Shown: one piece after another, positions 5,452-20,004 of the stretch
Position numbering within the stretch: position 1 is the stretch's first letter
Layout: each line of letters begins with the position of its first letter
DNA from: a virus
Strand: one strand, 5' to 3'
Length of the DNA stretch: 21,356 nucleotides
Virus record (IMG/VR): IMGVR_UViG_3300030380_001980
Coordinates: 1 to 21,356 of that record
Notes under the pieces: generated by a model
Databases searched by the model: none
What the model saw: only the letters and a program-made list of their open reading frames with translations
Told to the model about the DNA's origin: nothing
Position numbers and translations under genes: made by a program

Positions 5452-6528
5452 ATGGCATTTACTACTGCTAGTGGTTATGGTAATCTTCCTAACGGTAATT
5501 TTTCTCCCGTAATTTACAGCAAACAGGTGCAACTTGCTTTCCGCAAGTCTGCTGTTGCTGAAGCAATCACCAATTCTGATTACTTTGGTGAAATTGCTGC
5601 TATGGGTGATTCCGTTAAGATTATCAAGGAACCCGAAATTACAGTTAAGGCTTATGCCCGTGGTACAACCATCACGCCGCAAGACCTTGACGATGAAGAC
5701 TTCAGCCTAACAATTGACAAAGCTAACTACTTTGCATTTAAGGTTGATGATATTGAAGAGGCACACTCACACGTTAACTTCCAGTCTCTGGCAAGTGATC
5801 GTGCTGCGTATCGCCTTGCTGACCAATTTGACCAAGACGTTCTTGGTTATATGTCAGGCTTTAAGCAATCTGCTCTGCATGGCGCAGCCAATACAGCTAA
5901 CACAACCGTAAATGGTTCAGTCGCTGTTGCAACTGCTGGTACAGACGAATTGCTTGCAAGCATGAAACTGGATGCATCAGACTTTACTGATGGTGCAGGT
6001 TCTGCAGGTTCTGCAGGTGACGCTATTGCTATTGCCCCTCGTACTGGTGGTGCAACTGACGCAACTCCTGCTGCTGGTGACACTCACCCACTGACTTTGA
6101 TTGCACGTATGGCTCGTCTTCTTGACCAGCAGAACGTGGATTCACAAGGTCGTTGGTTGATCCTTGATCCAGTATTTATGGAAGTATTGAAGGACGAAGA
6201 TTCTCGTTTGTTCAATGCTGATTTTGGTGGCGGTGGACTGCAAAACGGTCAAGTCTCCACACAAATCCACGGCTTCCAAGTCTATCAGTCTAACAACCTA
6301 CCTTCAGTTGGTTCTGGCCCGTCATTCGCTGGCACAAACAGTTCATCCAACTATGGTGTGATTGTTGCAGGACATTCATCTGCTGTTGCTACTGCAGAGC
6401 AGATTAATAAGACTGAAACTTACCGTGATCCTGATAGCTTCGCCGACATTGTTCGGGGTATGCATTTGTATGGTCGCAAGATTCTTCGTCCTGAAGCTCT
6501 TGTTAACGCCATTTACCATTTAGCATAA
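5452..6528 (+). CDS. major capsid protein
   Basis: A 358-residue coat protein, close in length to T7 gp10A and expected to have the HK97 fold. ATG 5452 has a strong ribosome site (AGGAG, 8-base spacing). The features match podovirus coats: an N-terminal arm with FSPVIYSKQVQLAFRKS, then GDSVKIIKEPEITVKAY with the DLDDEDFSLTIDKANYFAFK segment of the E-loop and spine region, and late in the protein GFQVYQSNNLPS, a common coat signature. A loop around residues 180-210 is rich in Gly/Ala/Thr and carries a 9-base tandem repeat, and may be a surface insertion. There is no propeptide or maturation protease evidence. The promoter and leader upstream suggest high expression. Confidence 0.92.
   Translation: MAFTTASGYGNLPNGNFSPVIYSKQVQLAFRKSAVAEAITNSDYFGEIAAMGDSVKIIKEPEITVKAYARGTTITPQDLDDEDFSLTIDKANYFAFKVDDIEEAHSHVNFQSLASDRAAYRLADQFDQDVLGYMSGFKQSALHGAANTANTTVNGSVAVATAGTDELLASMKLDASDFTDGAGSAGSAGDAIAIAPRTGGATDATPAAGDTHPLTLIARMARLLDQQNVDSQGRWLILDPVFMEVLKDEDSRLFNADFGGGGLQNGQVSTQIHGFQVYQSNNLPSVGSGPSFAGTNSSSNYGVIVAGHSSAVATAEQINKTETYRDPDSFADIVRGMHLYGRKILRPEALVNAIYHLA
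5995..6018. repeat. 9-base tandem repeat inside the capsid gene
   Basis: GCAGGTTCT occurs twice in direct tandem (5995-6003, 6004-6012), followed by a partial third copy GCAGGT. It encodes AGSAGSAG in a Gly/Ala-rich loop of the coat protein. Repeat number could change by slippage without breaking the frame. Confidence 0.7.
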
Positions 6529-6540
6529 GGAGACATAATC

Positions 6541-7017
6541 ATGGCTACAATTACTGCTACTCTTGCTCCTGCTATGGGTAATTCCCAGCGTGGACGCAAT
6601 CCATACATGGTTGAGCAGGTCGTTGACCTTACTGCTAACAGCATTAATCCTAACGGTGACGTAGTACAGTGTATCACTGTCCCTGCAAACACCAAGATTA
6701 TTGCTGCTGGTTTTCAGGTAACAAAAAGCGCAACTCAGAATACGGGTACTGATGCTACTGCCATTCTTGGTACTGGCGCAGATGACAACGAATACGTAAC
6801 AGCGTTTGACATTGACGGTGCTGCTGATGGTGCTTATGCACCTAGCGTAACTGTTTCTGCTGATCTTGTTATTGGTTCTGCGGATACTCTGGATCTTACC
6901 CTTGCGGGTGGTGGCGCATCTTTTACTGCTGGTGAAATTCGTGTTTTCGCCGTAATGATGGATGTAAGCTCACTTGGTGAAATGGAAGCTGCTGAAGTTT
7001 CCCGTGACCAAATCTAA
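6541..7017 (+). CDS. probable head decoration / structural protein
   Basis: A 158-residue protein with AAGGAG overlapping the capsid stop codon (6527-6532) and an ATG 8 bases further on. It is beta-rich, Ala/Thr/Gly-rich and low in charge. Recognisable segments are YMVEQVVDLTANSINPNGDV near residues 22-40, then ITVPANTKIIAAGFQV, the aspect of a beta-sandwich. No catalytic motif, membrane segment or signal peptide is seen. The gene directly after the coat gene often encodes a decoration or stabilisation protein on the capsid surface, and similar small proteins occur there in marine podoviruses (from memory). The role comes from position and composition only. A strong hairpin follows the stop codon. 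Confidence 0.6.
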   Translation: MATITATLAPAMGNSQRGRNPYMVEQVVDLTANSINPNGDVVQCITVPANTKIIAAGFQVTKSATQNTGTDATAILGTGADDNEYVTAFDIDGAADGAYAPSVTVSADLVIGSADTLDLTLAGGGASFTAGEIRVFAVMMDVSSLGEMEAAEVSRDQI

Positions 7018-7023
7018 CTAAAT

Positions 7024-7057
7024 AGGTGATGGGGCAGGGCAACTTGCCCCTTCACTT
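7024..7057 (+). terminator. strong hairpin between head and tail genes, likely leaky terminator
   Basis: The upper stem GGGGCAG (7031-7037) pairs with TTGCCCC (7044-7050) around the 6-base loop GGCAAC. The lower stem AGGTGA (7024-7029) pairs with TCACTT (7052-7057), with one T-T mismatch between them. The following bases TTCTATTAA are T-rich but not a clean T-run, so termination would be partial. The position after the capsid genes resembles the terminator after T7 gene 10. An RNA-processing or stability hairpin is the alternative. Confidence 0.55.
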
Positions 7058-7074
7058 CTATTAAGGAATCGTAA

Positions 7075-7764
7075 ATGGCTACAACATTTTTACAATTAGT
7101 AAATCAAATAAACAGACGTTTAAATGAAGTGGAATTAACTTCTACTAACTTTGCATCTGCAGCAGGTTTTTATGCACACGCTAAAGATGCAGTTAATGCA
7201 TCTATTAGATATATTAATCAATCTGAATTTGAGTGGCCTTTTAATCATACTACTAAAACACAAACTTTAACGGCTAACACTAGTCGTTATGCTTTTCCAA
7301 CAGATTGTAAAGTTATTAATTTTGATACTTTTAGAATTAAAGAAGATTCAACTTTAGGCAACTCTACTACACGTATATTGCCTATGGCTTATGAAGAATA
7401 CTTAGATAAATTTGTAGCGCAAGAATATAATAGTTCTAGTTTTCAAGGTGTACCTACTCGTGTAGTACATGCGCCATCTCTTGAGTTTGTTCTTACTCCA
7501 GAACCTGATGCTGCTTATATTTTAGTATATGAGTATTTTAATTTTACTGCAGACTTATCTGCGCACGGCGATGCAATTGTTATACCCGATAGATTTGCTC
7601 ATGTTATTACAGATGGTGCAATGCACTATGCTTATTTATTTAGGGGTAATACACAAGATGCATTAGTAATGAAAGAAAAATTTGATGAAGGTATTAAGTA
7701 CATGCGTTCAATGCTAATTAATCGTACACCTTACGTACGTTCATACATGCGTACACAAAACTAG
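7075..7764 (+). CDS. tail tubular protein A-like adaptor
   Basis: A 229-residue protein, near the size of T7 gp11 (196), which forms the ring beneath the portal and holds the nozzle. The start is ATG with AAGGAA at 7063-7068. The N-terminus FLQLVNQINRRLNEVEL, followed by AKDAVNASIRYINQSEFEWPF, is helical and typical of this gatekeeper/adaptor family. TRYAFP-type strands follow, then a C-terminal helical part with 'DRFAHVITDGAMHYAYLFRG'. It lies directly before the long nozzle gene, as gp11 precedes gp12 in T7. The N-terminal motif is, from memory, very common in uncultured marine podoviruses. The coding sequence is noticeably AT-richer than the capsid gene, with many AAT and TTA codons. Confidence 0.85.
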   Translation: MATTFLQLVNQINRRLNEVELTSTNFASAAGFYAHAKDAVNASIRYINQSEFEWPFNHTTKTQTLTANTSRYAFPTDCKVINFDTFRIKEDSTLGNSTTRILPMAYEEYLDKFVAQEYNSSSFQGVPTRVVHAPSLEFVLTPEPDAAYILVYEYFNFTADLSAHGDAIVIPDRFAHVITDGAMHYAYLFRGNTQDALVMKEKFDEGIKYMRSMLINRTPYVRSYMRTQN

Positions 7765-7774
7765 GGGTAGTAGT

Positions 7775-9955
7775 TTGGCTGATGCATGGAAAACTTACGC
7801 CGTTGAGTTTCGTGGTGGATTAATAAGTAACCTGTCACCGCTACAGCAGGGTCTTAACGCACCGGGTAGCGCACGAATACTACGTAACTTTGAACCATCT
7901 GTAGAAGGTGGCTATCGTAGAATAGAAGGTTATGATAAGTATGACAGTGATTTAATTCCCCCATATGGTGCGCCAAAAGTACACGGTGCAAGTCAAAGTG
8001 GTACAAGTCTTGTCATAGCTAATTGTCATCAGACACCTGTAGCTGGAGATGTGTTATCATTTGCAGGTGGTGCAGTCGACGGTGCATCTCAATCAGGTAC
8101 ATCATTAGCTGTAGACGGACTAGATGTTAAACCTTCTGCTAATGATACGTTTACTATAGCTGGCGATTCTACTGTATATACAGTTAGCAGTGCTACTGCT
8201 TTAGCAGGAACAGACTCTACTTTAACAATAACACCTGCATTAGCTGCTACACCTGCTGATGATGCAGTTCTTAGTTTTAGATATACGATAGCTGCAGGTG
8301 GTGTTACTTTTGCAGCAGCAACAAACAGAGCAACCCTTACACTATCACAAACGATGGTGCATAATCCATCAGATCAAGATGATGTTACGTTTGTTTCAAC
8401 CACACTAAACTATCTGACACTTGGTGTTGCAAGCTGGGAAAGCCAAGCTATTGTCGCAAAGAATGATGATATTTTTAAATCAACAGGAACTGGGTTTACA
8501 AAAATAAATGTTCCTAATTATGGAACAACCTTAGTAAACGGTGCAAGTCAAACAGGTACATCTCTTATTGTAGATGGTTTAACTGCAGCACCACAGGCAC
8601 AAGATCAATTTACTATAGCGGGTGTTGCAAAAATATATACGGTAACAGCCACAGCTACAGTATCTTCAGGTGGTTCTACTTTAAGTATTGATCCTGCGCT
8701 TGCGTCAAGTCCTGCTGATGATGCCGCTATAACATTTATATCTACAAGCAGAGAAGGTGCTTCACGTACAAGATTTGCAAAGTATAATTATAACGGTACA
8801 CAAAAAATTGCAATAGTAGATGGGGCAAATGCTCCAGCAACATATGACACTAGTTTATTTACTGCACTAAATGATGCACCTGCTGATGTAAAAGGCGCAG
8901 CATTTATAGCTAACTTTAAAAATGCTTTGTTCTTTGGCAAAGGAACTATACTTAATTTTACTGCACCTTATACTGATAGCGATTTTTCTGTAGCAAATGG
9001 TGCAGGGTCTATAAATGTAGGCTCACCAATTACAGGTTTAGAAGTATTTCGTGATCAGTTAATTATTTTTACCGAAGTGTCTATACAAAGATTAGTAGGT
9101 AACACAATCGCAGATTTTACATTACAACCAGTAACTAACGATTTAGGTTGTATTGAAAGTGACACCATACAAGAAGTTGGTGGTGACATTATGTTCTTAG
9201 CACCTGATGGTTTACGATTGTTAAGTGCCACAGATAGAATTGGTGATTTTGGATTAGGTGTTGTATCTAAAAATATACAGGATGATTTAGTTACATTTAT
9301 TTCTACTAATACAAATTTTACTAGTTGCGTTGTTAGGGAAAAATCACAGTATAGAATATTTGGATATAATAATAATATTACCCAAGAAAATGCTCAAGGA
9401 ATTTTAGCCACGCAGTTTGCAGAACAAGGTGGCGCAAATATGCAGTACGCAGAAACTAGAGGCATACGAGCATTTGTAGCAGATAGTAACTACCATTTAA
9501 ATAATGAAGTTGTGCTATTTGCAAATGACGATGGCTACCTATATCAGATGGAATCGGGTAGCGACTTTGATGGCACAGCAATTACTATATCGTTTGCTAC
9601 ACCGTTTATTCCAATTGAAGACCCACGAGTACGAAAAACTTTTTACAAGATATTTTTGTACACTGATCCGCAAGGAAGTGTGGCATTTGATTTAAGTCTA
9701 AAGTTAGACTTTGACGAAGCTGGTACAGTGCAACCAGCACCTATTAGTATACAAAACGTACAAGGAACTGTTGGATTCTTTGGTGCAGGTATATTTGGTA
9801 CAACATCGTATGGTGCAAAATTAGTTAAACTATTTGAAAGTCAAGTAGTAGGTTCTGGATTTGCAGTTTCATTTTTGTTTGACTCTGCTACACAAGCACC
9901 ACCATTTTCACTTGACGCATTAACAGTCGAATACGCCACTAACGCAAGAAGGTAA
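7775..9955 (+). CDS. tail tubular protein B-like nozzle protein (TTG start)
   Basis: A 726-residue protein comparable to T7 gp12 (794), which forms the tail nozzle. The start is TTG 7775 with AGGGG at 7763-7767; no in-frame ATG lies nearby, and the conserved N-terminus begins at once with ADAWKTYAVEFRGGLISNLS, then APGSARILRNFEPSVEGGYR. The rest is beta-rich, as expected for the propeller of this family. It carries three copies of a GASQ(S/T)GTSL module starting at residues 71, 103 and 256. The first is cut short, while the second and third run about 65 residues to PADDA. These look like inserted beta domains exposed on the nozzle. Gene order (adaptor, then this) supports the call. Confidence 0.82.
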   Translation: MADAWKTYAVEFRGGLISNLSPLQQGLNAPGSARILRNFEPSVEGGYRRIEGYDKYDSDLIPPYGAPKVHGASQSGTSLVIANCHQTPVAGDVLSFAGGAVDGASQSGTSLAVDGLDVKPSANDTFTIAGDSTVYTVSSATALAGTDSTLTITPALAATPADDAVLSFRYTIAAGGVTFAAATNRATLTLSQTMVHNPSDQDDVTFVSTTLNYLTLGVASWESQAIVAKNDDIFKSTGTGFTKINVPNYGTTLVNGASQTGTSLIVDGLTAAPQAQDQFTIAGVAKIYTVTATATVSSGGSTLSIDPALASSPADDAAITFISTSREGASRTRFAKYNYNGTQKIAIVDGANAPATYDTSLFTALNDAPADVKGAAFIANFKNALFFGKGTILNFTAPYTDSDFSVANGAGSINVGSPITGLEVFRDQLIIFTEVSIQRLVGNTIADFTLQPVTNDLGCIESDTIQEVGGDIMFLAPDGLRLLSATDRIGDFGLGVVSKNIQDDLVTFISTNTNFTSCVVREKSQYRIFGYNNNITQENAQGILATQFAEQGGANMQYAETRGIRAFVADSNYHLNNEVVLFANDDGYLYQMESGSDFDGTAITISFATPFIPIEDPRVRKTFYKIFLYTDPQGSVAFDLSLKLDFDEAGTVQPAPISIQNVQGTVGFFGAGIFGTTSYGAKLVKLFESQVVGSGFAVSFLFDSATQAPPFSLDALTVEYATNARR

Positions 9956-9959
9956 AACT

Positions 9960-12443
9960 ATGGGAACAGGATATACCAGAAACGATTCAGCTAACAATAT
10001 TGCTGATGGAAACGTAATTAATGCTGCTGACTTTGATGGCGAATATGACGCTATTGAGTCAGCCTTTAATGCTACAAGTGGACATACACATGATGGCACT
10101 GCTGCTGAAGGTGGGCCTGTTACTGTGCTTGGCCCAGTACAAGACTTTGTAGCTAGTTCAACAGAGATAAAACCAAAGACTGATAATACACTAGACATAG
10201 GTACATCTGCACTACAGTTTAAAGATTTGTATCTACATGGTAAAGGATACATTGATGGCCTTGGTGAAACTTTATTAGTTGATACAGACAAAGCTATACA
10301 GTTTAGAGATAGTGCATTAAGTATAAACTCTAGCACAGATGGGCAGTTAGATATTGATGCAGATACTGAACTAGAACTTGTAGCACCCACGGTTGATATA
10401 GATGCATCTACTGCTGTTACTATTGATACAACTACTCTTACTATTACAGGTGCAGCAAACGTCACTGGTGATTTAGATGTTGATAATATTAACATAAACG
10501 GTAATGCAATTATCAGCACAGATACTAATGGTAATATTGCCCTTACTCCAAATGGCACTGGCGAAGTAGACATTAGTAAAGTAGATATAGACAGTGGCAC
10601 AATTGATAATACTACAATTGGTGGAGCAACTGCCGCAGCAGGTACATTTACTGCAATAGTTGGTGAGTCTGCTGCAATTGACAACATTACTATAGATGCA
10701 AACACTATATCTTCCACCGACTCAAATGGCAATATAACACTTGACCCTAATGGAACAGGTGTTATTGATATTCCTACCGATACTAAACTTCAAATACGTG
10801 ATAGCGCAATATTTATTAACTCAAGCACAGACGGTCAACTAGACATAGATGCTGATGCGGAATTAGAAATTACTGCGCCTATTGTAGACATTGACGCATC
10901 CACATCTGTAAATATTAGCAATGATCTAAAACTAGACAGCGATGCTGCTGTAGTATCTCTTGGTGCAGATGGTGAAGTAACACTTACACATGAGCATAAT
11001 GTAGGTGTGACACTTAACGTAGAAAACTCAGGTACAAATTCTGTTACTGATATTCTTAAACTGCAAGCGCAAAGCAGCGGCACACCTGCTGTTGGTATTG
11101 GTACAGGAATTGAGTTTTCTACAGAAACTGCTGCAGGGAATCTAGAAACTGGTGGTGTTATTGAATCATCCGCTAGTGGACTAACCCCGACATCTGAAGA
11201 ATTTGACATGATATTTAAAACCATGTCATCTGGCGGTGCGGCAGCAGAACGACTAAAGTTAAATGGCAGCGGTGCTACTATTGGCAATGTTAATGTAAAT
11301 GGTAATACAATCATCAGCACAGATACAAATGGCAATATAGCACTTACACCTAACGGCACTGGCGAAGTTGATATATCTAAAGTTGATATTGATGGCGGTG
11401 CTATTGACGGAGCAATAATCGGTGCAAACTCTGCTGCTGCTGGTACGTTTACTACTATAACAGGTCAGTCTGCTGTAATTGACAATATTACAATAGACGG
11501 TAACTCCATTACATCCACTGACACTGGTGGTAACATTGCGCTAACGCCAGATGGAACAGGAGATGTGCAGTTAGATGCTGATACAGTTCGTGTTGGTGAC
11601 AGCAATGCTAATGCAACCATTACAACCAACGGCACAGGCGACTTAATATTAAATACAAATGCAGGTACAGACTCTGGAAGTATAACTATAGCTGATGCTG
11701 CTAATGGTGCAATAACTATTGCCCCTAACGGTACTGGCAATGTAACTATAGGCAATCTTACATTAGATGCAGATGCAACAAAAACTAATGATCATGTCTT
11801 GACATACAATAGCACTTCTGATACAATACAGCTTGAAGCTATTCCGGCACCATCTTTGGGTGGTAACTTAGCCAGCGATCTAGCAAGTAATGGCAATAAT
11901 ATTGCTATGGCAGACAACGATGAAATACGGGTAGGTGCTGGCAATGACATTGTTATTAAATGGGATGCTACAGACGGACATATTACTACCCTTGGTACAC
12001 TAAACATTGATGGTGCTGATGGGCATGAGATGGCAAAGTTTGTCGATGGTGGTGCTGTAGAATTATACCATAATGATACTAAAACATTTGAAACTGTTGC
12101 GGCAGGTGTGCAGGTAACAGGAAGATCAACAAGTGCTACTATAACTGCAGAAAACGATGGTAGTTTTGACTTATCAGCTAACAATAACTTTTCTTGTACT
12201 ACAGCAGGTAATACAGAGATAACTTTTTCTAATACAGTAGCAGGTCAGTCTGGTAATATAACATGGACTACTTCAAGTGGTCATTCTGTTACTGCAAATG
12301 CCGTAGTAGGAATTAATGCTACTGCATTGGCTGCATTGCAAACAGCAGGGACGTATAATCTTTCATACTATTCTACGGCTGCATCAGGTAACGCAAGTGT
12401 TTTAGTGTCTGTATCAGGCGCACTTACTTCAGCGGGAGCATAA
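9960..12443 (+). CDS. repeat-rich tail fibre protein
   Basis: An 827-residue fibre with AAGAAGG at 9946-9952 before the ATG. The N-terminus (GYTRNDSANNIADGNVINAA, then HTHDGTAAEGGPV and LDIGTSALQFKDLYLHG) resembles virion-attachment ends of marine phage fibres. The body is almost all short beta repeats. Six copies of a P-(N/D)-GTG or NGTG motif lie near residues 198, 264, 465, 531, 557 and 590, and two pairs are spaced exactly 66 residues. A DGQLDIDAD block recurs near 116 and 280. The C-terminus (about 700-827) is a Ser/Thr/Asn-rich domain ending in SVSGALTSAGA, a candidate receptor-binding tip. No enzymatic or autocleaving chaperone motif is seen. Low charge and few stops on the opposite strand create false reverse ORFs. 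Confidence 0.82.
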   Translation: MGTGYTRNDSANNIADGNVINAADFDGEYDAIESAFNATSGHTHDGTAAEGGPVTVLGPVQDFVASSTEIKPKTDNTLDIGTSALQFKDLYLHGKGYIDGLGETLLVDTDKAIQFRDSALSINSSTDGQLDIDADTELELVAPTVDIDASTAVTIDTTTLTITGAANVTGDLDVDNININGNAIISTDTNGNIALTPNGTGEVDISKVDIDSGTIDNTTIGGATAAAGTFTAIVGESAAIDNITIDANTISSTDSNGNITLDPNGTGVIDIPTDTKLQIRDSAIFINSSTDGQLDIDADAELEITAPIVDIDASTSVNISNDLKLDSDAAVVSLGADGEVTLTHEHNVGVTLNVENSGTNSVTDILKLQAQSSGTPAVGIGTGIEFSTETAAGNLETGGVIESSASGLTPTSEEFDMIFKTMSSGGAAAERLKLNGSGATIGNVNVNGNTIISTDTNGNIALTPNGTGEVDISKVDIDGGAIDGAIIGANSAAAGTFTTITGQSAVIDNITIDGNSITSTDTGGNIALTPDGTGDVQLDADTVRVGDSNANATITTNGTGDLILNTNAGTDSGSITIADAANGAITIAPNGTGNVTIGNLTLDADATKTNDHVLTYNSTSDTIQLEAIPAPSLGGNLASDLASNGNNIAMADNDEIRVGAGNDIVIKWDATDGHITTLGTLNIDGADGHEMAKFVDGGAVELYHNDTKTFETVAAGVQVTGRSTSATITAENDGSFDLSANNNFSCTTAGNTEITFSNTVAGQSGNITWTTSSGHSVTANAVVGINATALAALQTAGTYNLSYYSTAASGNASVLVSVSGALTSAGA
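10497..11560 (+). repeat. duplicated fibre segment (two copies 801 bases apart)
   Basis: The segment coding NGNAIISTDTNGNIALTPNG then GTGEVDISKVDID starts at 10497, and a near-identical protein copy starts at 11298. Each is followed at 66 residues by a related unit. The protein copies are almost the same while third codon positions differ widely, so the duplication is old, or amino-acid sequence is kept by selection. Confidence 0.75.
11799..11827 (+). promoter_or_regulatory. possible internal promoter in the fibre gene
   Basis: TTGACA (11799-11804), a 17-base spacer and TACAAT (11822-11827) match the sigma70 consensus at 11 of 12 positions. It could supply transcript for the adhesin starting 617 bases downstream. 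It lies inside coding sequence of an AT-rich gene, so chance is a real alternative. Confidence 0.3.
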
Positions 12444-15400
12444 ATGAGTCTTATTCAAGGAACAGGTGGTGGATTAGGTGGTGCAGGTGCGCCGGGTGGT
12501 TCATTGGGATCATTTTATTCACATCTGCTTGACCAGTCGTTGAAGTTCAATGATGACGATAGCCAGTATCTAACCAGAACCCCAACTACTACTGGCAACC
12601 GAAAGACTTGGACGTTTAGTTGTTGGCTGAAAGGTGCGTCTTTCGCTAGTAGTCAAACAATATTTTCTACTTCACAGAACTACGACTCACTACGGTATAC
12701 AACTACTGGAAAGTTTATGCTTCTCTTGGGGAATAGTAGCTCCAATCTACAAACCACAGCCCTTTTTAGAGACCCCTCTGCTTGGTATAACCTTGTTGTT
12801 GCGGTTGATACAACACAATCCACATCAACAGACCGTGTAAAATTTTATGTTAATGGCTCTCAGGTTACGTCATTTTCAACATCAACATACCCGTCATTAA
12901 ATTATGATACTGGTTTTAATTACACAAGTTATTCCAATGCCATAGGACGTAGACAAAGTACATCAAGTCTTTATTGGGATAGTTATCTAGCCGAAATCAA
13001 CATGATTGACGGAACAGCTTTAGATGCTTCTAGCTTTGGTGAAACTAAGAATGGTATCTGGATACCAAAAGATACCAGTGGCCTGACATTTGGAACCAAT
13101 GGTTTTCACCTGACATTTAAAGATGATGTTGTTTCTGAGGGGTTCAATACTGTTGCCTATGCTGGAACCGCTGGTACGCAAAGCATCAGTGGGGTGGGCT
13201 TTGCGCCGGATTGGGTTTGGATTAAAAAGAGAGCTACTGCAGGCCACGTTATTCAAGATACAGTGCGTGGTTCTTTTGGGTATATACAATCCAATGCAAC
13301 AAGTGCGGAAAATACAACCTCTGGAAATGATTGGTTTAGGTCATTTGATGCAGATGGATTCACTGTGTCTGATACCACAACAAGTGGAAGTGCAACATCA
13401 GAATGGAACGATTCCGGTGAAAATTACGTTGCTTGGTGCTGGGAAGCTGGCGGCACACCAACAGCCAACAACAGTGCTGGTGTAGGGTATACCCCAACAG
13501 CAGGTTCTGTAAAGATAGATGGCAGCAATCTTGGTTCTGCGTTGGCTGGCACTATCCCTGCAACTAAAATATCAGCTAACACCGCTAGAGGTTTTTCGAT
13601 TGTAGGTTATGAGGCAACAGGTTCGGCTGGCACTATTGCACACGGCTTATCTGCTGCGCCTGAGTTTATTATTGTCAAACATCGTGACCAATCGAGTACA
13701 TCTTGGCCTGTTTATTACGGCGATAATACAGATGTCCTTTATCTCAACGATACTGCTGCAACAACCGATGATGCGAATGCTTGGAACGACACTTCACCTA
13801 CATCTACTGTTTTCTCTGTAGGGGCAAATGGTGGCGATACCAATAATAGTTTAGGCGGCTCAACTGTAGCCTATTGTTTCCATTCAGTGTCTGGCTATTC
13901 GTCCATTGGTTCATACACAGGAAATGGGTCTACAACAGGTCCAACAGTAACGACTGGCTTCCGTCCTGCTTGGGTTATGATAAAAAGCAGTGTTGGTACT
14001 ATTGGTCACTGGCTTATATGGGATACTACCAGACATCCTTCTAATCCTAATGACAATGTTATTTACGCTAATTTAGACAATGCAGAAAGCGTTGGTTCCA
14101 GTTATGCAATTGAAGTAACAGCAACAGGCTTTCAAATTAAACATAACGGCTCAGACGTAAACACATCAGACAAGACATACATCTATATGGCCTTTGCCGA
14201 CACTCGTGAAGCAGCCTTCTTCAAAGATGTAAGCACCAACGGCAATCACTTTACACCTGTGAATCTAGATTATAGAGACAGTATTCCTGATGTGCCAACA
14301 AATAACTTTGCTACTTTGAATCCTTTATCAAAAGGGTCTGGCACTGTAACTTTCAGCGAGGGCAATCTGAAGTCTAGCACTAGTGTATCACTCGCAGTAG
14401 CAGAACACGGCGCAACATTTACAATTCCAAAATCTGGAAAATGGTATTGGGAAGCTGCGTATACTGGTGCATTAACTGGTGGCTCCGTTGCTGCTATAAT
14501 GGGTATTATGGACATTGACACTCAGACGGTTGGTGTAAGCGGGAATCATCTTACAACTACAACTGGCGATTACGTTTCATACTATACACACAATAGCGCT
14601 ATTTATGAAAACAACGTACTTGATTCAAGTTTTAGCGGAAACGAAGCAGCGGCTACTGTTGGTTTTGCTTTAGATATAGACAATGGGTATTTGTTTGTAC
14701 ATCTTAATGGGACTTATATTGGCGGCACACCAAACTTCAGCACTGGTGCTAATCATGCGGCTGAACCCAACACAACTAGAACGTGGCTTCCATTTTTTGG
14801 TGCCAATGGTGGTGGAACAATTACTTGGACAGTTAATTTTGGGCAAGACAGTTCTTTTGCTGGCACAAAAGCTACAGACAATTCTAACACAGATGACAGC
14901 GGTCACGGCAGCTTTGCCTACGCACCACCAAGCGGATACCTTGCCTTGTGTTCGCAGAATTTGCCAGACGTAGACATTATTGATGGCAGTGAGAATTTTA
15001 ATACGGTGCTTTATACTGGCAATGCTGGAACTCAAAGTATTACTGGAGTAGGTTTTGACCCGGATTTAACTTGGGCTAAAAACAGGACTGACGACGGTTA
15101 TCATCACGAATTATATGACACAGTTCGTGGTGATAATAAAAGATTGTTTAGTAGTCAAGCTGATGCTGAAGCTACTGGTTATTTGCAATTTATAAGTGAC
15201 GGATTTTCTCTAACTGCTGGTGGGGGTATAAACACAAATAGTAAGAATCACGTTGCTTGGAACTGGAAATCTGGTGGAGCAACACCAGAAAAAACCTACG
15301 TTGTAAAGGTTGTTTCAGATGGTGGTAACAAATACAGATTTGATGACTTTGGTACAAGCGCAGTTACTTTAAATTTACAAGAGGGCGGCACATACACATT

Positions 15401-16322
15401 CGATCAATCGGATAGTAGTAATGATGGGCATCCATTAAGGTTTAGTACAACATCAAACGGTACACACGGAGGCGGTTCAGAATATACAACAGGTGTAACA
15501 ACAACAGGAACACCGGGAAATGCTGGCGCAAAAACAGTTATAACTGTTGCAGCTAGTGCAGCTACTTTGTATTATTATTGTACCCAGCACTCAGGTATGG
15601 GCGGTCAAGCTAACACAAACTCTACCTTTGGTTCAACGCATTTAGAGGGCAGTGTTTTATCTACCGTTTCTGCAAACACAACGGCTGGGTTTAGTATTCT
15701 TGAATATACTGGCACAGGTTCGGCAGTCACTGTTGCACATGGATTAAGTGCTGCACCAGAATTAATTTTATCTAAAAATAGAGATGATGGTGATGGCTGG
15801 AATGTTTATCACTCTTCTTTAGGTGCATCGGCTTATTTGTACTTAAACAGTAGTGGAACAGGTGAGACAGGTGTGTCATATCCGTGGAACGGAACGGCTC
15901 CAACAAGTTCAGTATTCTCCACTAATTCAGCAGGGTCAATAAGTTCAGAAAAAATGATAGCCTATTGTTTTCACTCAGTTGAGGGCTACTCAAAGGTCGG
16001 TTCCTACATCGGGAACGGAGCCAACGATGGTGCGTTTGTCTACACAGGATTTAGGCCAGCTTGGACTATGATTAAACGTGCAGTCGGCGGCACTGACCAT
16101 TGGGTAATTGATGATGTTGTAAGGTCGCCTACTAACGAAATGGCTAATACCCTTTACGCAGATTTATCTAACAATGAATATGATGGCTCGTTATATGGAA
16201 TAGACTTTGTGTCAAATGGCTTCAAAATTCGTGACAATGACGGAAACTATAACGCCAATGGCAATACTTACATTTACCTCGCCTTTGCCGAATCCCCATT
16301 TAAATTTGCTAATGCACGATAG
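12444..16322 (+). CDS. multidomain tail adhesin: LamG, duplicated AHGL-type module, SPRY-like, cupredoxin-like
   Basis: A 1292-residue protein whose ATG directly follows the previous stop. A Gly-rich N-terminus (1-25) is followed by a LamG/concanavalin-like domain (about 33-200; YLTRTP, WTFSCWLKG, RVKFYVNGSQ, YLAEINMIDG). Module 1 (about 234-590) and module 2 (about 852-1290) are duplicates, each with three roughly 90-residue sub-repeats of the form GF.P.W..IK...DT.R or HGLSAAPE. I believe Pfam names this region DUF7483 (from memory). Between them lies a SPRY-like domain (about 640-810; GKWYWE at 665-670). A cupredoxin-like domain is inserted in module 2 at about 951-1055. The carbohydrate-binding folds suggest host-surface recognition. 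The fibre chaperone gene follows. Confidence 0.8.
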   Translation: MSLIQGTGGGLGGAGAPGGSLGSFYSHLLDQSLKFNDDDSQYLTRTPTTTGNRKTWTFSCWLKGASFASSQTIFSTSQNYDSLRYTTTGKFMLLLGNSSSNLQTTALFRDPSAWYNLVVAVDTTQSTSTDRVKFYVNGSQVTSFSTSTYPSLNYDTGFNYTSYSNAIGRRQSTSSLYWDSYLAEINMIDGTALDASSFGETKNGIWIPKDTSGLTFGTNGFHLTFKDDVVSEGFNTVAYAGTAGTQSISGVGFAPDWVWIKKRATAGHVIQDTVRGSFGYIQSNATSAENTTSGNDWFRSFDADGFTVSDTTTSGSATSEWNDSGENYVAWCWEAGGTPTANNSAGVGYTPTAGSVKIDGSNLGSALAGTIPATKISANTARGFSIVGYEATGSAGTIAHGLSAAPEFIIVKHRDQSSTSWPVYYGDNTDVLYLNDTAATTDDANAWNDTSPTSTVFSVGANGGDTNNSLGGSTVAYCFHSVSGYSSIGSYTGNGSTTGPTVTTGFRPAWVMIKSSVGTIGHWLIWDTTRHPSNPNDNVIYANLDNAESVGSSYAIEVTATGFQIKHNGSDVNTSDKTYIYMAFADTREAAFFKDVSTNGNHFTPVNLDYRDSIPDVPTNNFATLNPLSKGSGTVTFSEGNLKSSTSVSLAVAEHGATFTIPKSGKWYWEAAYTGALTGGSVAAIMGIMDIDTQTVGVSGNHLTTTTGDYVSYYTHNSAIYENNVLDSSFSGNEAAATVGFALDIDNGYLFVHLNGTYIGGTPNFSTGANHAAEPNTTRTWLPFFGANGGGTITWTVNFGQDSSFAGTKATDNSNTDDSGHGSFAYAPPSGYLALCSQNLPDVDIIDGSENFNTVLYTGNAGTQSITGVGFDPDLTWAKNRTDDGYHHELYDTVRGDNKRLFSSQADAEATGYLQFISDGFSLTAGGGINTNSKNHVAWNWKSGGATPEKTYVVKVVSDGGNKYRFDDFGTSAVTLNLQEGGTYTFDQSDSSNDGHPLRFSTTSNGTHGGGSEYTTGVTTTGTPGNAGAKTVITVAASAATLYYYCTQHSGMGGQANTNSTFGSTHLEGSVLSTVSANTTAGFSILEYTGTGSAVTVAHGLSAAPELILSKNRDDGDGWNVYHSSLGASAYLYLNSSGTGETGVSYPWNGTAPTSSVFSTNSAGSISSEKMIAYCFHSVEGYSKVGSYIGNGANDGAFVYTGFRPAWTMIKRAVGGTDHWVIDDVVRSPTNEMANTLYADLSNNEYDGSLYGIDFVSNGFKIRDNDGNYNANGNTYIYLAFAESPFKFANAR
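15294..15608 (+). other. cupredoxin-like domain inside the adhesin (residues about 951-1055)
   Basis: The segment starts with YVVKVV and continues with LNLQEGGTYTFDQSD, then GHPLRFST with His996, and ends YYYCTQHSGMGGQ with Cys1046, His1049 and Met1052. His...Cys-x2-His-x2-Met is the type-1 copper ligand pattern with amicyanin-like C-terminal spacing. The 50-residue gap between the first His and Cys is close to that in plastocyanin. It lies between sub-repeats 1 and 2 of the second duplicated module; module 1 has only a linker there. Whether copper is bound is unknown. Confidence 0.7.
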
Positions 16323-17136: not shown

Positions 17137-20004
17137 ATGGCAATGTTTAAAGCATTTAAGCCTAGTGGCATGGAAAAGATAGCACGTTCTATGGGCTATC
17201 AAGGTAGTATGGATGGGTTTCAAAACTATCTTTCACAAGACCCTATGCGACAGCAGCAAATGAGTAACTTTCAAAACAAAGCTATGCAGATGGCAGCAGG
17301 TGGTATGGTTAATAACTACAAAAAAGGTGGTGCAGTACCACCACGCCGTACTGAAATCAAAGGCCAAGACCATATGCTTGCCTACATCACACCGCAAGAG
17401 GCTGAGTTGCTAAAAGCGCATGGTGGTTCAGGTAAGCCGGGTCCAATGGGTATTCCTTCTTTTGAGGATGGCCCAGCAAACGTAACTTCTTATCTTGTAC
17501 CTACTGGTAGCGGTGTCGGGGAAGAACAAGAATATAAAAGAGTATATATAGGCTCTAGTCAAGACACTATAGCAAACAGGGCAGCAGGTTCTGGCGATCT
17601 TTCTAATCAATTACAGGGTACATCTCCGGGTGTCTTACCTGTAGATGTTCCTTATGAAGTAGCGGCAGCAATCAATCCAAACTTTGCTGCTACACAAGAA
17701 TATTATGATTCATTACAGTCTACTGATGAAGGGATGCCCGTTGAAGATACTACTCCGCAAGGACCAACAGACCTAACAGGGCAGTATGGTGATCAAATAG
17801 CAGATAATATGGCTAATAATGTACAAACATTTGGTACTACTTTTAGACCTAATAATACGCCGCCATTACTTAACACTGCTTTTGTTGATAATGCAGGGCA
17901 AACATATGTAAATACTTCTGGTGTGCAACGAGCCGTTGCTGGACAACCAATAATGCCAGAGTTACCAAATGAGTTGGATGCTCGTAGAAAACTACCTAAG
18001 TTACCAAATGAGTTGGATGCTTATGCTACTGGTGGTGTTGTAACGAACCCTACAGGTACACAAGCAGGTACACCTACTGTAACTCAGCCTACTGTTTCTC
18101 AAGATGGACAACCTACTATTGGTCAGTTTACAGTAGAGCAAATGTATCAACCCGGTGTGCCTATCGGTGGTACGACTATAGCTGCTGAAACTCCTTATGA
18201 TGCATCACAAGACATTGCTGCAGGTACAGGTACTCTTACAGGTAGCGTTGCTGTGCCTACAGCCACTGCTGCAGCCTCACAGGCACAGCAGATTACCCCA
18301 TCACAAGCAAACACAATGCAAGTTGAACAAGTTGCAGGTGACGTAAATGCAGCATTAGATGCTACTCAAGCTGCGCAGTCCAATCCGAACGATCCTAGAC
18401 TGGATATACAAGCAGCACAACAAACACAATCTTCTGTGGGTAATTTGCAAGCGGCGCAGGGTACTTCTTTTCTTATTAATAATCCTGTACAAAGACAACT
18501 ACAGAATGGTGAGTTAATTAGTGGCACAGGTGTTGATGCTGCTAAAGCTGCTGCACTAACTGCACAGACACAAGCTGCTGCTGCACAGGCTAATCCATCT
18601 GCACAAACTATGGTAGCCAATCAGCTTGATGGCTTGATGCAAGATTTTGATGGTGGTGCTACACCAGCATGGGCTGCAGGAGCCATGAGAGCCGCTACAG
18701 CAGCTATGGCTGGACGTGGGCTAGGTGCATCATCTCTTGCTGGGCAAGCTGTTGTACAGGCTGCTATGGAGTCTGCAATGCCTATCGCAATGGCAGATGC
18801 ACAAACAGTAGCTAAGTTTGAATCACAGAACTTATCCAATCGTCAGCAGTCAGCTATGCTTGCTGCAGAGCAACGTGCTAAGTTTATGGGTCAAGAGTTT
18901 GATCAGGTATTTCAAACTAAAGTAATGAATGCTAGTAAAATTAGTGACATTGCAAACCAAAACTTTACAGCGGAACAGCAGGTGCAACTAGAGAACTCAC
19001 GTGCTGTTAACACAATGAACTTGGCTAACTTGAATAATAAACAGTCTCTTGTAATGGCAGAGGCGGCTGCACTAGCACAACTTGATGTAGCTAATCTAAG
19101 TAATCGTCAACAGGCTGCAGTGCAAAATGCACAGAATTTCTTGCAGGTTGATATGGCTAACTTGTCTAATCGCCAACAGACAGAATTGTTTCAAGCGCAA
19201 CAGCGGGTACAAGCATTGTTTACAGATCAAGCTGCTACCAATGCTGCTGCACAGTTTAATGCCTCTAGTCAGAATCAAACAGATCAGTTCTTCCAACAAC
19301 TTGGATCACAAGTGTCTCAATTCAATGCTACGCAGCGAAATGCACAAGCACAATTTAATGCAGGACAAACTAACACAGTTAATCGTTTCAATGCAGAAAT
19401 AAACAATCAACGTGATCAGTTTAATGCAAATAATCAAATGGTAATTGCACAATCTAATGCTACTTGGCGCAGACAAATTGCTACAGCGGACACTGCTGCA
19501 GTTAATCGTGCTAATGAATTAAATGCTAACGCTATCTTGGATATTAGTAAACAAGCGTACAGTAATCTGTGGAACTACTATGCAGATACTATGGAGTGGG
19601 CATGGACATCTGCAGAAAATCAAATTGACCGTAATAACGCTTTGGCTATTGCTGAATTAGATGCTAATACACGTAGTAAAGTTGCAGCAGAAGGCTCTTC
19701 AGGTGCAGCAGGTAACGCTATTGGTAGCTTAATTGGTACACTAGGCAGTGCATGGATTTTATCTGGTGGGCTTTGTTGGGTTGCTCGTGAGGTCTATGGC
19801 AAACAAAATGTACAGTGGTTTATTTTCCGTACATGGTTACAGTACGATGCACCTAAGTGGTTTAAAAAATTATACATGACACACGGTGAAAATTATGCTA
19901 AACTAATTGCTAAAGTACCGCCATTAAAATGGGCAACTAAAAAACTCATGGACATGGTAGTGGAGAATAAAAGGGAGAAACACAATGTCTCGTGCGCACA
20001 CTGA
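17137..20004 (+). CDS. long helical virion protein with strict 11/22-residue repeats
   Basis: A 955-residue protein with AAAGGA at 17124-17129. The N-terminus (1-120) has MAAGGMVNNYKKGGAV, then HMLAYITPQEAELLKAHGG. The middle (about 120-480) is Thr/Pro/Gln-rich and probably disordered. From 565 comes a helical rod: 22-residue units (NLSNRQQ-like at 565, 609, 631, 653, 675), then 11-residue units (FNA-like at 707, 718, 729, 740, 751, 762, 773, 795). After a small Gly/Ala hydrophobic stretch (about 857-875) a C-terminal domain reads CWVAREVYGKQNVQWFIFRT and ends KKLMDMVVENK. An internal or ejection protein, or a short tape-measure-like rod, is the best inference. It overlaps the next gene by 20 bases. 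Confidence 0.7.
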   Translation: MAMFKAFKPSGMEKIARSMGYQGSMDGFQNYLSQDPMRQQQMSNFQNKAMQMAAGGMVNNYKKGGAVPPRRTEIKGQDHMLAYITPQEAELLKAHGGSGKPGPMGIPSFEDGPANVTSYLVPTGSGVGEEQEYKRVYIGSSQDTIANRAAGSGDLSNQLQGTSPGVLPVDVPYEVAAAINPNFAATQEYYDSLQSTDEGMPVEDTTPQGPTDLTGQYGDQIADNMANNVQTFGTTFRPNNTPPLLNTAFVDNAGQTYVNTSGVQRAVAGQPIMPELPNELDARRKLPKLPNELDAYATGGVVTNPTGTQAGTPTVTQPTVSQDGQPTIGQFTVEQMYQPGVPIGGTTIAAETPYDASQDIAAGTGTLTGSVAVPTATAAASQAQQITPSQANTMQVEQVAGDVNAALDATQAAQSNPNDPRLDIQAAQQTQSSVGNLQAAQGTSFLINNPVQRQLQNGELISGTGVDAAKAAALTAQTQAAAAQANPSAQTMVANQLDGLMQDFDGGATPAWAAGAMRAATAAMAGRGLGASSLAGQAVVQAAMESAMPIAMADAQTVAKFESQNLSNRQQSAMLAAEQRAKFMGQEFDQVFQTKVMNASKISDIANQNFTAEQQVQLENSRAVNTMNLANLNNKQSLVMAEAAALAQLDVANLSNRQQAAVQNAQNFLQVDMANLSNRQQTELFQAQQRVQALFTDQAATNAAAQFNASSQNQTDQFFQQLGSQVSQFNATQRNAQAQFNAGQTNTVNRFNAEINNQRDQFNANNQMVIAQSNATWRRQIATADTAAVNRANELNANAILDISKQAYSNLWNYYADTMEWAWTSAENQIDRNNALAIAELDANTRSKVAAEGSSGAAGNAIGSLIGTLGSAWILSGGLCWVAREVYGKQNVQWFIFRTWLQYDAPKWFKKLYMTHGENYAKLIAKVPPLKWATKKLMDMVVENKREKHNVSCAH
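17960..18021 (+). repeat. exact 23-base direct repeat, period 39
   Basis: Identical 23-base copies lie at 17960-17982 and 17999-18021 inside the long virion protein gene. They encode LPNELDA twice, the first followed by RRK and the second by YAT. Nucleotide identity points to a recent in-frame tandem duplication of 13 codons in a flexible region. Confidence 0.8.

Follow-up and report, generated by a model that had tools for sequence, protein, structure and literature searches.

Type-1 copper proteins serve as electron carriers and as domains of enzymes, but are not known as parts of virions. The viral DNA analysed here, IMG/VR record IMGVR_UViG_3300030380_001980, raises the question of whether such a copper site can be part of a phage fibre and what it might do there. 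A preliminary description of the window (the whole analysed stretch of 21,356 nucleotides, positions 1 to 21,356 of the record) had placed a cupredoxin-like domain with a complete type-1 ligand set inside a phage adhesin. Our analysis makes it probable that this protein, a phage fibre, contains a cupredoxin-fold module at residues about 948-1058, which has a complete type-1 copper site and was inserted into a loop within one of the DUF7483 repeats.

Judged by sequence similarity, the carrier protein is a phage fibre. Its ORF matches DUF7483 (PF24299) in four stretches with 626 bits (cut-off 27 bits), the virion structural protein phrog_19943 with 950 bits, and the tail fiber phrog_24898 with 406 bits. 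The DUF7483/phrog_19943 phage fibres are the family of the carrier protein, and fibres related to it were found in 78 phage records. PHROG matches in the window comprise portal, major head, and tail proteins, and the DNA matches Puniceispirillum phage HMO-2011 across the portal and coat genes; on these matches, the window is assigned to an HMO-2011-like podovirus, as its structural module. The fibre gene is preceded by a repetitive ORF of 827 aa with NGNAIISTDTNGNIALTPNGTGEV units (9960-12443), and a further ORF of 955 aa (17137-20004) contains many NLSNRQQ and Q/A/N-rich repeats; both are without a PHROG match.

The four residues named in the preliminary description, H996, C1046, H1049, and M1052, are located exactly as given there when read from the translation of the 1292-aa ORF (12444-16322, + strand), in which GHPLRF starts at residue 995 and YYYCTQHSGMGG at residue 1043 (Table 1). 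The span originally given for the domain, 15294-15608, lies in the right place, but the domain is slightly wider, at about 15285-15617. The whole fibre protein contains 6 Cys, 27 His, and 11 Met. After shuffling of this protein, C-x2-H-x2-M appeared in 0.1% of trials, and in 0.06% it was also preceded by a His at a distance of 30-70 residues. The 28.7-kb record contains a single instance of the codon pattern TGY-N6-CAY-N6-ATG. A chance origin of the ligand motif is ruled out by its conservation in homologues, which is described below.

Table 1. Features of the fibre ORF and of its predicted copper site
Feature	Position	Strand	Evidence
Fibre/virion structural protein, 1292 aa, domain carrier	12444..16322	+	DUF7483, phrog_19943, phrog_24898
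Second DUF7483 repeat, first part, residues about 836-943, upstream of insertion	14949..15272	+	domain-less homologues align to residue 943-946
Cupredoxin-like domain, residues about 948-1058	about 15285..15617	+	AlphaFold2 model, PDB matches, hhalign
H996, predicted first type-1 copper His ligand, G-H-P motif	15429..15431	+	invariant in 72 homologues; aligned to cupredoxin His
C1046, predicted copper thiolate ligand, sole Cys of domain	15579..15581	+	invariant in 72-sequence alignment
H1049, predicted second His ligand	15588..15590	+	invariant in 72-sequence alignment; aligned to cupredoxin His
M1052, predicted axial Met ligand	15597..15599	+	invariant in 72-sequence alignment; aligned to cupredoxin axial Met
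Second DUF7483 repeat, remainder, residues 1062-1285, downstream of insertion	15627..16298	+	PF24299 positions 107-330

The fold of the domain was predicted with two AlphaFold2 models. The first one, based on an alignment of 63 near relatives, reached a pLDDT of 86.8 and had rusticyanin, CueO, laccases, and amicyanin as PDB neighbours. The second one, comprising residues 948-1059 and based on an alignment of 72 diverse relatives, had a mean pLDDT of 95.9 and a pTM of 0.88. Its best PDB matches were the three-domain copper nitrite reductase (6tfo/2dv6) and a pseudoazurin with an engineered amicyanin loop (2ux6), followed by rusticyanin, CueO, and plastocyanin. The Foldseek E-values were modest (about 1e-3) with TM-scores of 0.5-0.6, and nearly all leading matches were type-1 copper proteins. 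Thus, the structure prediction proposed in the preliminary description yielded a β-sandwich, with plastocyanin and amicyanin among the neighbours of one or the other model, the Greek-key topology being judged from model confidence and the nearest PDB entries rather than from direct inspection of strand order. Among viral models, tail fibre and baseplate proteins of phages were frequent matches.

The relationship to cupredoxins is faint at the level of single sequences. In Pfam, the domain scored 12.8 bits against PF00127 (Copper-bind), which is below the curated cut-off of 21.2; NCBIfam returned zero matches for the domain, and a single-sequence phmmer search against the PDB found nothing. Sequence profiles retrieved PDB cupredoxins at E-values of about 0.1-0.7, interspersed with antibody V domains. 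In contrast to these weak PDB matches, hhalign aligned the domain with a set of ten plastocyanin-family (PF00127) proteins from marine bacterial genomes with a probability of 93.6% and an E-value of 2e-7. The lectin-like domain of the same fibre, used as negative control, had an E-value of 0.33. In the hhalign alignment, His, Cys, His, and Met all fall on the known cupredoxin ligands; M1052 corresponds to the axial Met in the cupredoxin profile, the loop being two residues shorter. As phmmer was empty and the profile matches to the PDB were weak and mixed, the case is carried by the fold and the profile-profile evidence.

Among known systems, the domain resembles pseudoazurin, amicyanin, and plastocyanin in predicted fold, in the H...C-x2-H-xn-M ligand arrangement, and in the alignment of all four ligands. 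The short C-x2-H-x2-M loop type is shared with amicyanin. In contrast to the PF00127 proteins, which are periplasmic electron carriers, the phage domain is part of a fibre. In plastocyanin, azurin, and amicyanin, the first His is usually followed by Asn, whereas the phage domain has Pro at this position. Its G-H-P motif recalls multicopper oxidases, which have His-Pro at the first ligand within an HP-x-H-x-H segment. Rusticyanin and the cupredoxin domains of multicopper oxidases such as CueO and laccase are also among its top Foldseek neighbours. Unlike these oxidases, the phage domain is a single domain without enzyme context and without the His residues of the trinuclear site; its only His residues are 996, 1008, and 1049, and no trinuclear HxH motifs are present.

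Conservation of the site is high in an otherwise variable domain. In the alignment of 72 diverse homologues (A5), which has a mean column identity of 39%, only six columns are invariant, namely F986, H996, C1046, H1049, M1052, and G1053. All four ligands, in the order His, Cys, His, Met with a C-x2-H-x2..4-M loop, are present in the window and in 305 of the 309 distinct domain copies from the collected loci. Three of the remaining copies have no motif in the aligned stretch (a copy cut by a contig end, an interrupted copy, and a degenerate second copy in phage Syn1), and in the fourth one, from locus L399, Cys and His are jointly replaced by Ser beside an intact copy. Because some of the search patterns contained the C-H-M motif, a separate scan was done with the N-terminal pattern [TV]YxFDQS[DH]S alone. 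In this set, H...C-x2-H-x2/3-M was found in 76/76 distinct sequences (x2 in 66, x3 in 10), the first His being less independently tested than Cys, the second His, and Met, as the pattern adjoins it upstream. Thus, the free variation of the four residues that would have spoken against the preliminary description was not seen. Exactly one Cys is present in 301 of the 309 copies, so that a disulfide within the domain is unlikely. Conservation is highest in the ligand loops, with a mean top-residue frequency of 0.64-0.71 compared to 0.48 for the first strands. Two loci encode tandem domain copies in one protein: the L399 ORF starting at 275 (+), with copies at residues 590-695 and 731-843, one of which reads HYYSPNSTGMG and has lost Cys and the second His, and the L403 ORF starting at 2 (+).

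The occurrence of similar segments in other marine phages, which the preliminary description had suggested, is borne out by named marine phages and by IMG/VR. The named carriers are marine (31 records with the window domain as query, 129 with a divergent copy) and almost all are phages of Synechococcus, Prochlorococcus, Pelagibacter, and Methylophilales; many of the carrier proteins are annotated as tail fiber, baseplate wedge, or virion structural protein. At least 600 IMG/VR stretches matched in the search for the domain. The ORF starting at 5524 in phage P-HM1 (L217) has a second, more divergent and more plastocyanin-like copy at residues 681-787 (NTAGTYYYQCSNHGGMIGTITV), which scores 19.8 bits against PF00127, near the cut-off of 21.2. 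In record L415, a partial minus-strand gene at 6934-8118 (record end) resembles one for ribonucleotide reductase, with an NPCSEI motif. In bacterial assemblies, 51 loci with the domain were found; plasmids gave zero domain matches. Some of the bacterial loci are phage-type, such as a Pelagibacteraceae contig with the T7 tail-fibre N-terminus PF03906, and others look cellular, including proteins with RTX or DUF4214 parts and SAR86 lipoproteins with a lipobox. Single-domain SAR86 lipoproteins with the lipobox LAAC or LYAC are encoded at L100:4794-5357, L119:4863-5393, and L108:4791-5339. It is possible that these are cellular copper lipoproteins and the source or the recipient of the phage module.

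Alignment of related fibres suggests how the domain reached its position. The DUF7483 fibre homologues of Roseobacter phage CRP-406 and Methylophilales phage MEP301 lack the domain and have a short loop at the place where the carrier has it; in MEP301, this loop reads WNWKAGG-TAVSNTAGTITSQVSAN. From these loops, the domain is identified as an insertion that lies between about residues 943 and 1062 in the second DUF7483 repeat. Synechococcus phage S-B68 has the domain at the corresponding loop of a different DUF7483 copy, and in several IMG/VR contigs it is bordered by the same flanks. These arrangements indicate exchange of the cupredoxin-like domain as a mobile module.

The conservation pattern argues that the site has been kept for metal binding, and copper binding by H996, C1046, H1049, and M1052 is strongly predicted. 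The site would probably be loaded with copper on lysis or in seawater. The metal may lock the ligand loops and thereby give a rigid accessory domain, and such a domain might help the fibre to adhere to a widely shared surface feature; both steps carry less weight. Recognition of specific hosts would probably reside in other parts of the fibre, since the copper end is the most conserved one and is therefore unlikely to serve this purpose. Because conservation across phages with unrelated hosts is strongest in the ligand loops, we infer that a general task, copper-stabilised accessory adhesion, fits better than host-specific recognition. Possible roles in the virion are a copper-stabilised adhesion module, copper capture, and a redox trigger.

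Alternatively, a different soft metal (Zn, Ag, or Cu(I) only) could occupy the site, or the bound metal could be purely structural and without redox function. Cys-His-His-Met sites can bind several metals, and no redox partner is seen in the window; we nevertheless consider this rather unlikely, as the domain matches type-1 copper proteins in fold and in the spacing of its ligands.

A more far-reaching role, in which fibre-bound copper engages copper-handling or electron-transfer proteins on the host surface and the metal acts in attachment or DNA release, as a 'Trojan horse' or redox trigger, appears quite unlikely. It would agree with the near-invariant ligand set, the strong conservation of the ligand loops, and the related lipoprotein versions in marine bacteria. 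A parallel role of iron in attachment has been proposed for iron-binding HxH sites in the tail fibres of T4 (gp37) and Alteromonas phage R22Y (PMC11705849), which likewise place a metal site in a tail fibre, including that of a marine phage. This proposal is the closest published idea that was found. In these fibres, iron is held in a trimeric HxH stack, whereas the phage domain has a copper-type site in a cupredoxin fold, and no HxH iron-site motif was found in it. Against the copper version of this idea, no partner was identified, the domain occurs in phages that infect many unrelated hosts and is missing from related fibres, and some copies are in baseplate proteins such as P-HM1 gp7 and not at the fibre tip.

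That the domain is a metal-free, immunoglobulin-like β-sandwich whose residues are kept by descent is very improbable. Its YYC motif weakly matches antibody V domains, and the joint loss of Cys and His in one L399 copy indicates that apo-like versions can exist, but four invariant ligands at this level of overall identity and the cupredoxin neighbours in the PDB speak against it. A V-type domain in particular was rejected, as the conserved Cys pair and an Ig-type disulfide are absent from a domain that has a single Cys in nearly all copies. A soluble plastocyanin-type auxiliary metabolic gene can practically be dismissed: cyanophages do carry petE (PMC5083919), likewise a phage-borne type-1 copper fold, but this is a soluble metabolic gene and not a virion module, whereas the domain is embedded in the fibre ORF and its relatives are virion proteins.

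The preferred reading remains a cupredoxin-fold module of the fibre with a predicted copper site. Literature searches, largely confined to papers available without subscription, yielded no account of a cupredoxin-type domain in tail proteins of phages. Both the fold and its chemistry are known; its place in the virion and how large the family is appear to be undescribed. In its widest form, the idea is that type-1 copper centres are widespread on marine phage tails and that their copper acts in infection, either in docking via copper-handling proteins of the host or in triggering a redox-dependent change of the fibre, and also affects copper speciation in the ocean. This is unlikely as a whole; if true, it would be the equivalent for copper of the iron 'Trojan horse' that has been proposed. 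If copper is bound, many ocean phages with Pelagibacter, Synechococcus, Prochlorococcus, and methylotroph hosts would bear a metal centre on their tails. Fibre domains without annotation thereby gain a testable biochemical property, which raises the question of whether copper affects the adsorption or stability of these phages.
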